Assembly: GCA_949130485.1 (NCBI GenBank)
Contig: OX422186.1
Span: 2,645,313-2,709,312, forward strand
Direction of reading: 5' to 3'
From: Agelas oroides
Lineage: Eukaryota; Porifera; Demospongiae; Agelasida; Agelasidae
DNA: 64,000 nt
Shown: one piece after another, positions 42,591 through 62,326 of the stretch
Layout: every line of letters begins with the position of its first letter
Numbering within the stretch: position 1 is the stretch's first letter
Notes under the pieces: model-generated
Database searches by the model: none
Told to the model about the DNA's origin: nothing
The model's input: the letters and a program-made list of their open reading frames with translations, nothing else
Position numbers and translations under genes: made by a program

Positions 42591-42850
42591 CCGTAGTGTC
42601 CCGGAAATATGCCCCCCCTTTTGCAATCTTAGCCTTAGTACAAAGTGCTTATACGCAGGATGCGACATTTTCTCTCACGATTACGCCCTCCCTTCTGTTG
42701 CCCCACTCACAACTTCTTGTCCAGATAGAAGAAGAGAACGCATTTGACGACTTTGCAGTTGCTATCTGGAATGATGTTATTTATACAATCATAGTTGTCA
42801 GTAAATTTTGGTAACAGCCATATATGGTTGGAGGGGGGGGCTTATGCGCG
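42591..42850 (+). pseudogene. Decayed relative of the HIRAN-carrying element
   Basis: Starts CCGTAGTGTCCCGGAAATAT directly after TA, the same end as the intact element at 58694. It continues with the same C-run and GCTTAT motifs and contains a frame with EENAFDDFAVAIWND, the core of the HIRAN domain that reads NNIHDDFAVAVLKN in the intact copy. The front half of the domain is missing and the frame ends soon after. The right end is a G-run followed by CTTATGCGCGAG, without a recognisable right terminal repeat, so the copy is truncated or rearranged. Confidence 0.7.
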
Positions 42851-58225: not shown

Positions 58226-58693
58226 CAGAGGTACGGCATATATACACAGTACGGTACCAAAAAAAAAAAAGAAAAAAAAAAGATGATATCCTTAGCAGAA
58301 TGTTACACTGGCTGCCAATTATAAGCAACTCTATCCCATACATAGCCCAGCCAGAGATGGGCATCGTACCACCACAGGGACGGTACCAATTATTGCACTA
58401 CCCAACCCCCCCCACTCATCCACACAACAGCAATGCAGGTATCACCAATGCAGGTTCCATCAACAAGCACCTTGCACAACACCACACCAGACCCACCTAC
58501 TAACATGCCCACAGGCTTGTTCATGGGGGACGCAATGCTGCCAATTCCTGACAGCCTTATCAGTAAGATCCAACGACTGGAATTTGTGGACATGGCAGAC
58601 TTGCGCCCAGAAGCATGGATGTTTGAAGACGAGCCCCACGAAAAATCACTAGCAGGCTTATTCAAACGTCAGAAACAGCCCGTAACAGATATA

Positions 58694-59451
58694 CCGTAGT
58701 GTCCCGTTAATACGCCCCCCCATTTTGTACACTACATCCTGCCTAAAGTGGGGGGGGGGCTTATATTCGAGGATGCAATTAGTCTCGACTATAAGCCCCC
58801 CCCCCCCCCCCATATGAAATCAATGCCTTTCACTATCAACTAACTATGGCGACGACTTTCAGGATCGAGAGTACTGTTCGCGGACATCACGTTTACAAAG
58901 CTGCGTGGTCTCCCTACATCGGAGAAGAGCTGCCAGTTCAACGCGAGGTCAATAACATTCACGATGACTTCGCTGTAGCTGTCCTCAAGAACGGCAACAC
59001 TGTCGGTCATGTACCACGGGAAATTTCCAGAGTCTGCTGGTATTTCTTGCACAAGAGTGGCAGCGAGATGACTTGCATCGTCAATGGTGACAGAAGACGT
59101 TCTGAAGTTGATGGGAAAGGACTCGTGGTTCCGTGCGTGTACATCTTCAGAGGGAAACAAAAACACCTTGACAGACTGATAAACCTGTTTGCTAAACTAG
59201 CAGCTTAAAACTTGGAACATCTAACCGGCTTTTCTAAAAGCCACAAAACTTACAAAAGATTCACCGACTACTATAGTCTTACTGAACGCACTTGCAACGT
59301 ATAGTAAGCACGTGTAGTTTTGATGTTCCAGAAGACGCTCACCGGGGGGGCGTTATAACGAGTCAAACTACCCTGTGCAGGAACTTTGGCGGAAAAGAGG
59401 GGGGGGGGGGGGGCGTATTTTCGAAGGGGGCGTATTAGCGGGACACTACGG
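58694..59451. mobile_element. 758-bp TA-flanked transposon carrying a HIRAN ORF
   Basis: The left end CCGTAGTGTCCCGTTAATAC and right end GTATTAGCGGGACACTACGG are inverted, with TA on each side (58692-58693 and 59452-59453). Sub-terminal C- and G-runs and GCTTATATTCGAGG / CGTATTTTCGAAGG pairs extend the inverted symmetry. The gag frame is continuous when the element and one TA are ignored, confirming the borders. TA duplication fits Tc1/mariner-type transposition, but no transposase is present. The only ORF is the HIRAN protein at 58846-59208. A decayed relative lies at 42591. Confidence 0.9.
58846..59208 (+). CDS. Stand-alone HIRAN-domain protein
   Basis: An intact 120-codon ORF from ATG (context CTAACTATGGCG) to TAA. 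It has the HIRAN pattern: FRIESTVRGHHVYKAAW (strand 1 and conserved GH-Y), PYIGEELPVQREVNNIHDDF (the E-x-x-N-x-x-D core), AVAVLKNGNTVGHVPREIS (AVAV and the VG-VPR turn), then WYFLHKSGSEMTCIVNG and VPCVYIFRG. HIRAN domains of HLTF/Rad5-type helicases bind 3' ends of single-stranded DNA. Here it stands alone, without helicase or nuclease, and fills the interior of a TA-flanked transposon. It might recognise transposon ends or repair intermediates, or be a captured passenger (inference). Codons look normal, with no stops or shifts, which suggests a young copy. Confidence 0.8.
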   Translation: MATTFRIESTVRGHHVYKAAWSPYIGEELPVQREVNNIHDDFAVAVLKNGNTVGHVPREISRVCWYFLHKSGSEMTCIVNGDRRRSEVDGKGLVVPCVYIFRGKQKHLDRLINLFAKLAA

Positions 59452-60056
59452 TACTACTGTGGGTGCAATGTTTCGCATCTTACGTGGCTGTCCTGTCTCA
59501 GACACAGCCACAAAGTACTCCCCACCTAATGGCATACATGGCCACAATCATCCGCTGCCACAAAACATTCGAAGGACTGGGCTGGGTTGTATATGATAGT
59601 GCATACCGACGCCGGGCCGCAAGGCAGAGCAACCTCAATTGGGCAGTGATTGACAGCTCATTGTTTAACACACTTTTCACCGGCAGAGCTAAGTCATCAC
59701 TTAAGTGCTCGCACTGTCTCAGTGAAGACCACACAGTGGATGAATGCCCAGCAGCTAATGGCCCCCTTGTGCAGCTTACAAGAGACCTAGGCATAAGCGC
59801 TACAATGAGCCCAAGCTACTCTGCCAAGCATACAATGCAGCCTCCAAGCATGATTCCCCCAGCCAAACGGGTAGCTGCACCCATACAACCAAAGCCATGT
59901 GGACTGTTTAACTCAAACATGGGTCCACGATGCACCTACGGAGAAAGGTGCAGGTACATGCACATCTGCTCACTCTGCTTCAAGAACCACCCTAAGGCAT
60001 CATGCCAACGCATCTCAGCTGGCAATTGGAAACCAACAGCTCAAAACAGGAAATGA

Positions 60057-60727: not shown

Positions 60728-62326
60728 GTGCATATCTGGGCTCAATCCTTACAGGCTCACCCAGATCAAGCACTTGCCCGATACCTGCTGAAAAGCATGA
60801 CTGCCGGATTCAGAATAGGCTACGACTGGTCAAGAGAGCGCAAATCAGCCTGCAGCAACTTGCCATCAGCATCCGCGCACCCAGAGGTTGTACAGCAAAA
60901 CCTGGACCAGGAAGTAGCCTCCGGCAGACTACTGGGACCATTTCAGCCTGACGAACTCAGCCCACCAGAGAAGAAGCACCAACAAGGAAAATTCTGAATC
61001 ATCGTTGACTTGTCGTCTCCGGAAGGCAAAAGCATTAATGACGGGATCGCTACAGAGCTGTGCTCACTCTCCTACACAAGAGTGGACGACGTTGCGAAAG
61101 GTATCTGTCAGGCGGGCCCAGGCGCCCTGATGGTAAAAATCAATATAAAAAGCGCCTACCGTATTGTGCCGGTTCACCCAGTAGACAGGCACCTATTAGC
61201 AACACACTGGAAGGGGCAATTATATGTGGATGGGGCACTCCCATTCAGCCTAAGATCTGCCCCCAAAATCTTCACAGAGCTCACAGACGCATTCGAATTT
61301 ATAATCAAACAGCACGGTGTCGAATGGGTTTGGCACTACCTAGACGATTTTATTACAACTGCAACTACAGAATGCGCAGCAGCACTAGATATCATGCTGG
61401 CCTTGTCAGACCTCCTGGGCATACCGCTGGCGACAGACAAGATCGAAGGACTGGCATGCATAATCACATTCTTAGGCATCACTCTCGACACACTGCAGAT
61501 GGAGCTGCGCCTCCCAGAAGAAAAAATACAAAGGCTCAAGTCGCTCATTGAAGAGTGGTCCCCCAAACGGTGGTGTAGAAAAAGGGACTTGGAGTCCCTA
61601 ATTGGTCAACCACATCACGCAAGCACTGTCGTAAAACCCGGCAGGTCTTTTACGAGACGAATGATCGATCTTTGTAAGTCTGTTCACCGGCGAGACAGAC
61701 CGATCAGGCTAAACAAGTCGTTCCACTCAGACCTAGCATGGTGGCGCCTCTTTCTCACCCAGTGGAATGGGGTTGCGATGATGCCTACTCTCATCAACAA
61801 AAGACCAGAATACATAGTAACCTCAGACGCCTCCGGGTCATGGGGTTGCGGTGCCTTCTGCGATAATCACTGGCTCCAAATACCATGGAGCAACAGTACA
61901 GCGCTACTCTCCCAGTCCATTGCGGTAAAAGAAATGATACCAATCATTGCCTCATGCGTAGTATGGGGCCATGACTGGAGAGGAAAACACATCCTCGCCA
62001 AATCAGATAACGAGTCCGCAGTACATGTCATAAAGCACCGCAGTTGCAAAGATGAAACCCTCATGCACATGCTCCGCTGCTTATTCTTCATAGAGGCGCA
62101 CTTCGGGTTTACACTGGTAGCGGAACACATCCCAGGTGCGCACAATGAGCTAGCAGATGCTATTTCACGTAATCACGCTACTCTTTTCCTTTCCAAGGTA
62201 CCTGGCGCATGCAGAACCCCGACCTCAGTGCCGCAGGAGCTACTGGAGCTACTCATTCACCAACAGCCCGACTGGACCTCGCAGAACTGGACAGCCTTGT
62301 TCACTTCTATTTTAGAGAAGGTCTAG
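60728..62326 (+). pseudogene. DIRS copy 2 reverse transcriptase-RNase H, one stop
   Basis: The frame is open apart from a TGA at 60995-60997, just before IIVDLSSPEGKSIN (copy 1 has an amino acid there). RT: motif A reads KINIKSAYR, with Asn where the catalytic Asp belongs; motif B LPFSLRSAPKIF; motif C WHYLDDFIT intact; thumb FLGITLDTLQMELRLPEEKI. RNase H: VTSDASGSWGCGAF, SIAVKEMIPII, AKSDNESAVHVI and EHIPGAHNELADAISR, with the four acidic residues present. The end (to 62326) overlaps the recombinase start in another frame. The Asp to Asn change at residue 45 after 61010 and the stop make the RT inactive, although most of the 438-codon frame is preserved. Confidence 0.9.

Follow-up and report, generated by a model that had tools for sequence, protein, structure and literature searches.

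The 758 bp DNA transposon at positions 58694..59451 of the window (the whole 64,000-nucleotide stretch of Agelas oroides DNA that was analysed) carries an intact gene for a stand-alone HIRAN protein, and longer relatives with the same ends carry a pogo-type transposase gene as well. There is very little doubt about its anatomy, that of a TA-target transposon with two-gene pogo-type relatives. The fuller reading, in which it is a non-autonomous deletion derivative of such a transposon and HIRAN is an accessory acting in trans, is considered probable.

The window element and its HIRAN protein

The element lies within the frame of a host retroelement. Its parts, together with a second, degraded element in the same window, are as follows.

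58433..58691, + strand: left part of the interrupted host retroelement frame, in phase with the right part
58692..58693: left copy of the TA target-site duplication, read in the sequence
58694..59451: the whole DNA transposon, 758 bp
58694..58719, + strand: left terminal inverted repeat, 26 bp, 25/26 matching the right end
58846..59208, + strand: intact HIRAN ORF, 120 aa and stop (Pfam PF08797, HLTF fold)
59209..59425, + strand: 3' part of the element from the HIRAN stop to the right end; contains a poly-G tract
59426..59451, - strand: right terminal inverted repeat, 26 bp
59452..59453: right copy of the TA target-site duplication, read in the sequence
59463..60056, + strand: right part of the interrupted host frame; CCCH zinc-finger matches weak, below cut-offs
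42591..42775, + strand: degraded B-like relative with one exact 13-bp end and a B-like continuation

The first-pass annotation had described a TA-target transposon with precise borders, whose removal restores a gag frame. Both statements were confirmed: the inverted ends and the TA duplication are as listed, the empty site (31 bp with a single TA) was found at four other places in the genome, and the two parts of the host frame are in phase. Downstream of the interrupted frame is a reverse-transcriptase ORF (window 61010-62326), which scores 29.1 bits with RVT_1, just under the cut-off of 29.6. The degraded relative contains a weak HIRAN remnant (10 bits) at 42710-42775, and no partner was found for its end.

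The ORF had been called an intact, stand-alone HIRAN gene, and this also held. It scores 32.3 bits with PF08797 against a curated cut-off of 24.7 and shows the HIRAN fold of HLTF. HIRAN was the sole domain found in a Pfam search of the 120 residues, the SNF2 helicase and RING of HLTF/Rad5 being absent. The protein is identical to the translation of the family majority ORF; among the best 150 of 1095 candidates in the genome, 28 copies agree with it at every one of the 120 residues, and the matched stretch is free of stops in 128. When aligned with HLTF, its residues N36-N37, D40 and H55 correspond to NN(90-91), D and H, and alanines stand in place of R71 and Y72, which we take to have roles in 3'-OH binding; the HLTF numbering other than N90-N91 is likewise presumed. 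Database relatives reaching E 0.001 numbered 210. An alignment of 18 rows, made up of the window protein and 17 of 23 relatives taken from 120 of these that were listed, has 21 columns that are invariant across the rows so chosen. In relatives at 55-68% identity the domain is retained essentially in full, and one, P0104, diverges at its C-terminus.

Relatives in the genome

The whole 259-Mb assembly (141 contigs) was searched for related elements. There are 685 exact occurrences (351+334) of TA followed by the 13-bp end and 0 of the reversed pattern. A search for end-flanked pairs, as proposed in the first-pass annotation, gave 42 closed pairs of 531-2749 bp among the first 100 of the 685 ends, all on contig C1; 29 of the 42 measure 721-813 bp and 16 ends were unpaired. 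Subfamily A has the ends CTAATACGC (134+123 exact ends), and the left end of the window element is the variant TTAATACG. Pattern matches were also seen in bacterial (14) and viral (4) contigs, none of which was confirmed as a relative.

A sample of 35 distinct elements was assembled, ten by best-match search and the others from C1, partly picked by size. HIRAN sequence was detected by tblastn in 33 of them, one being a 38% remnant, and in every member of a consecutive run of 14 closed elements on C1 (E009-E022), several of these being frameshifted or truncated. Three of the 35 form a group of 545-548 bp in which HIRAN is cut after residue 74; they are 98.9-99.3% alike. This group has multiplied too, so HIRAN is not needed in cis.

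Two long pairs were considered as autonomous copies and rejected. L061 (2749 bp) has no ORF of more than 89 aa and its HIRAN is a 38%-identity remnant. The 4.4-kb pair at C22:2765798-2770233 was set aside on the 1401 bases read (L109), in which, judged by eye, a LINE-type reverse transcriptase frame adjoins a scrap of transposase N-terminus.

The first-pass annotation had suggested looking for a long relative with genes for HIRAN and for a DDE transposase, and two were found. On C3, exact TA+CCGTAGTGTCCCGCTAATACGC ends lie at 1982216 (+) and 1984594 (-), and on C5 at 3984763 (+) and 3987143 (-); these pattern positions put the element lengths at 2373 and 2375 bp. In both, the HIRAN frame has 98% identity with the window ORF across residues 1-120. 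Divergent to HIRAN, each has a 455-codon frame without stops that holds DDE_1 (PF03184; 101 bits on C3, 103.5 on C5) and, in the same frame, an N-terminus with 57 and 56% identity, respectively, to the pogo-type N-terminus of a subfamily B copy on C19. This anatomy is known from search positions and profile scores. With TA and short inverted ends, a DNA-binding region of CENP-B/Brk and Tc5 type by its match to the C19 copy, and DDE_1 in frame, both can be placed on these features in the pogo superfamily. At a C2 locus an end, HIRAN (98%) and the transposase N-terminus follow one another as on C3 and C5, DDE_1 not being among the matches listed there. By coordinates, the spacing from HIRAN to the end is the same in the window element as in the C2, C3 and C5 copies.

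As the C3 and C5 elements hold HIRAN and a transposase between the same ends, the window element is most simply, and most likely, an internal-deletion derivative which lost the transposase and retained HIRAN. The earlier description of a minimal transposon with HIRAN alone is thus right in that HIRAN is the only gene of the window copy and wrong in so far as it implied a self-contained one-gene transposon. HIRAN as the mobilising protein, also suggested there, was rejected: the longer relatives carry the DDE_1 frame, and in a deletion derivative of a two-gene pogo-type transposon HIRAN is therefore not the protein that mobilises.

The sister subfamily, B, has A-like ends, CAAATACGC (53+46, or 99, exact ends), HIRAN at 65% amino acid identity and the transposase N-terminus. 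Its representative on C19, read as two contiguous pieces, is 1278 bp long; both of its ends are present, the right one mismatched at one of 13 positions, with TA on either side. The HIRAN frame is open, with 65% identity to A over 115 codons, and the usual ATG is absent. Divergent to it runs a frame starting MPTPRRNSYTVRLKV, which scores 25.1 bits with HTH_Tnp_Tc5 (cut-off 22.2) and 18.2 with BrkDBD, below the cut-off of 23.4. This N-terminus has 44 matches in the genome. For 19 of them, belonging to about 15 elements, one of the 99 exact B ends is no more than 1.5 kb away, against a chance expectation of 0.05. With the B-type HIRAN as query, one of the 150 scored matches was a B-type copy (90%) and the other 149 were at 59-64%, so that intact B-type HIRAN looks rare.

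HIRAN genes were also found beside transposases in two further contexts, at the following loci.

L012-L027, L081, L096-L099 (e.g. C4:1.319 Mb, C5:6.825 Mb, C9:5.568 Mb, C22:5.507 Mb): second family, with HIRAN
L105 (C21:6.553 Mb), L106 (C1:24.517 Mb): single-gene relatives of the second transposase that lack HIRAN, with inverted ends starting TATAGTGC
L089 (C1:23.128 Mb), L090 (C3:1.093 Mb), L091 (C4:6.537 Mb, truncated): HIRAN-Ulp1 fusion

The second family has inverted repeats of ~530 bp and a HIRAN gene convergent with the transposase; as its ends are TACAGTGGAACC, its target is probably TA. Judged by its frames, this HIRAN gene probably has two exons. Three copies of the transposase have open frames of 619-626 codons. 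Pfam DDE_3 and HTH_33 are found in relatives of this transposase from public assemblies; the copies here score with both only below cut-offs, and the HIRAN-free cousin L106 passes for DDE_3 (36.5 bits). Among the relatives of a transposase of this genome is a protein, P0217, whose label gives its source as a 'symbiont of Poecilosclerida', Poecilosclerida being an order of sponges. L105 and L106 span 2636 and 2648 bp between their inverted ends and have long, open transposase frames, and their existence indicates that HIRAN is optional in this transposase family. Many 1.5-kb deletion derivatives of the second family still hold HIRAN sequence, and such remnants are flagged by 11 matches to residues 1-38 of the transposase. 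The DDE_3-type transposase (L081) was considered as the partner of the window family of inverted repeats. This was unsupported, CCGTAGTGTCCCG occurring in 0 of the 12 loci L096-L107, which extend only 1.5 kb past the matches. L097 and L098 contain CAGTGGAACC.

In the third context HIRAN (30 bits) and an Ulp1-like (C48) protease (18.5 bits, below the cut-off of 20.7) are fused in one ORF. At two places a DDE_1 frame lies convergent to the fusion, one scoring 55.1 bits (C3:1.093-1.095 Mb) and the other 35.3 bits (C1:23.126-23.129 Mb); near the truncated C4 copy there is no DDE_1 among the matches listed. The top HIRAN score in the genome, 55.3 bits, belongs to a long frame close to a chromodomain-like ORF (L011, C20:4534195-4534434). 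The identification of this locus as the host HLTF gene was unsupported, its frames not being HLTF-like by eye.

Selection on HIRAN and its possible role

Private changes in 23 aligned copies comprise 10 synonymous and 31 non-synonymous changes, in line with the unconstrained expectation of 0.28 synonymous (p 0.73). The raw divergence of the ORF (0.63%) is lower than that of the rest of the element (1.74%), a comparison that included homopolymer runs; with these excluded, the values are 0.79% for the ORF and 0.41% for the downstream region (14 copies, Fisher p 0.05). By these counts HIRAN is without constraint after insertion and recent copies drift neutrally, as is expected of copies mobilised in trans. 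Between subfamilies the pattern is different. The A and B HIRAN sequences differ at 32, 24 and 69 first, second and third codon positions (p 1e-6), with dN 0.26-0.29; dS is saturated, so no exact dN/dS ratio can be given. The codon-position bias shows past purifying selection on HIRAN between the subfamilies. A third-position bias is also found in the second family (22/13/43, p 1e-4). The neutral evolution that the first-pass annotation had entertained is thus seen after insertion and not between subfamilies.

The parent would have been a TA-target pogo-type transposon of ~2.37 kb in which, between the two TIRs, HIRAN ran leftward and the transposase, to its right, ran rightward. In the derivative the transposase would have been lost while HIRAN and the two ends remained, and this derivative would presumably have been mobilised in trans to reach hundreds of copies. 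We lean towards HIRAN being an accessory protein of transposition that acts in trans. Transposition in the Tc1/mariner group exposes 3'-OH ends, and HIRAN would most likely hold the ends exposed by the transposase, as the HIRAN of HLTF does at other cut ends; 3'-end binding is tentatively put forward as its actual step. According to PMC11237066, HLTF HIRAN binds the 3'-OH at a single-stranded DNA end, and HLTF depends on HIRAN for the removal of Cas9 from cut DNA, which is inhibited by the isolated domain, less so when N90-N91 are changed. An accessory HIRAN may aid synapsis or integration, shield the ends, or compete with a host HLTF-like enzyme. Its partners in this one genome are a pogo DDE_1 transposase, a DDE_3-type transposase and perhaps, beside DDE_1, the Ulp1 fusion. 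That TA-target Tc1/mariner-pogo transposons have repeatedly acquired HIRAN as an accessory, which would cap 3' ends against stripping or processing of the post-cleavage complex by host HLTF/Rad5-type enzymes and so be a transposon-encoded anti-repair factor, is a more doubtful proposition.

The neutral private changes, an ORF divergence no lower than that downstream and the multiplication of HIRAN-truncated copies would all agree with a functionless HIRAN that joined the ancestor by chance, its frame still open because the amplification burst is young. The first-pass annotation had likewise regarded HIRAN as a chance passenger should most copies with these ends lack it. This fails for subfamily A, where all 14 consecutive elements have HIRAN sequence, and largely applies to B, where there is one B-type HIRAN copy among 150 scored against the 99 exact ends. 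However, a functionless gene is hard to reconcile with the third-position bias between A and B and in the second family, with the wholeness of the domain in relatives at 55-68% identity, and with the presence of HIRAN next to transposases in three contexts, and this explanation is thought unlikely.

Two other roles can be imagined for HIRAN. It might guide the transposition complex to 3' ends present where DNA is repaired or at replication forks, copies then inserting into newly replicated DNA and multiplying; HIRAN-only derivatives are indeed far more numerous than the intact two-gene copies found (two), but high numbers of non-autonomous copies are common in transposons without HIRAN, and such steering seems improbable. 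Deletion derivatives of certain other transposon families encode truncated proteins that damp or tune transposition, and HIRAN-only derivatives might do the same by making an excess of HIRAN that competes for cut ends. Derivatives that keep HIRAN are the common form of subfamily A, and the isolated domain is dominant-negative on HLTF according to PMC11237066. Against this, no selection on HIRAN was seen among the derivatives, and a regulatory role is judged very improbable. The accessory role in trans remains the preferred reading.

Relation to known systems

To our knowledge, pogo and Tc1/mariner elements have mostly been described with the transposase gene alone. The elements described here resemble the pogo superfamily, as presented in PMC7386202, in their TA duplication, short inverted ends, DDE_1 and HTH_Tnp_Tc5 with weak BrkDBD, and their length falls inside the 1.2-5.2 kb given there. 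The HTH_Tnp_Tc5 and BrkDBD layout is reported in the same paper for POGK, a Passer-derived pogo gene. The pogo catalytic triad is of the type DD29-56D. The relatives found here differ from the superfamily in adding a second, divergent HIRAN gene.

Additional genes are known from the TBE and Tec elements of ciliates, which are Tc1/mariner elements with extra ORFs (PMC7325037). These are likewise TIR-bounded elements of the Tc1/mariner group with more than one gene. The word "HIRAN" occurs 0 times in the main text of the pogo survey PMC7386202 and of the Tc1/mariner survey PMC7325037. In bacteria, HIRAN genes lie in genomic islands beside HipA and dinuclease genes (PMC11706625). There too the gene travels with mobile or island DNA; in contrast to the sponge genes, those described there are bacterial, outside a TIR-bounded transposon and unpaired with a transposase. 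Unlike HLTF/Rad5, the transposon HIRAN is stand-alone, without helicase or RING, and the equivalents of R71 and Y72 are not kept. Searches of open-licence PMC texts for HIRAN together with mobile-element words gave no listed title or abstract with HIRAN in a eukaryotic DNA transposon. What appears to be new is that a pogo-type transposon has HIRAN as a second gene kept by selection; extra ORFs in Tc1/mariner elements and HIRAN in bacterial islands were already known.

A selected second gene that recurs beside different transposases and has the cut-end fold of HLTF would point to a host barrier at a post-cleavage step. Such a gene, which lends itself to direct biochemical testing, might also serve as an accessory factor when transposons are used for gene delivery, and would offer an origin for the stand-alone HIRAN proteins in public assemblies.

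The window element is similar to a MITE in being short, TIR-bounded, TA-flanked, present in high copy number and presumably mobilised in trans. It differs from one in retaining an intact protein-coding HIRAN gene, MITEs being non-coding.
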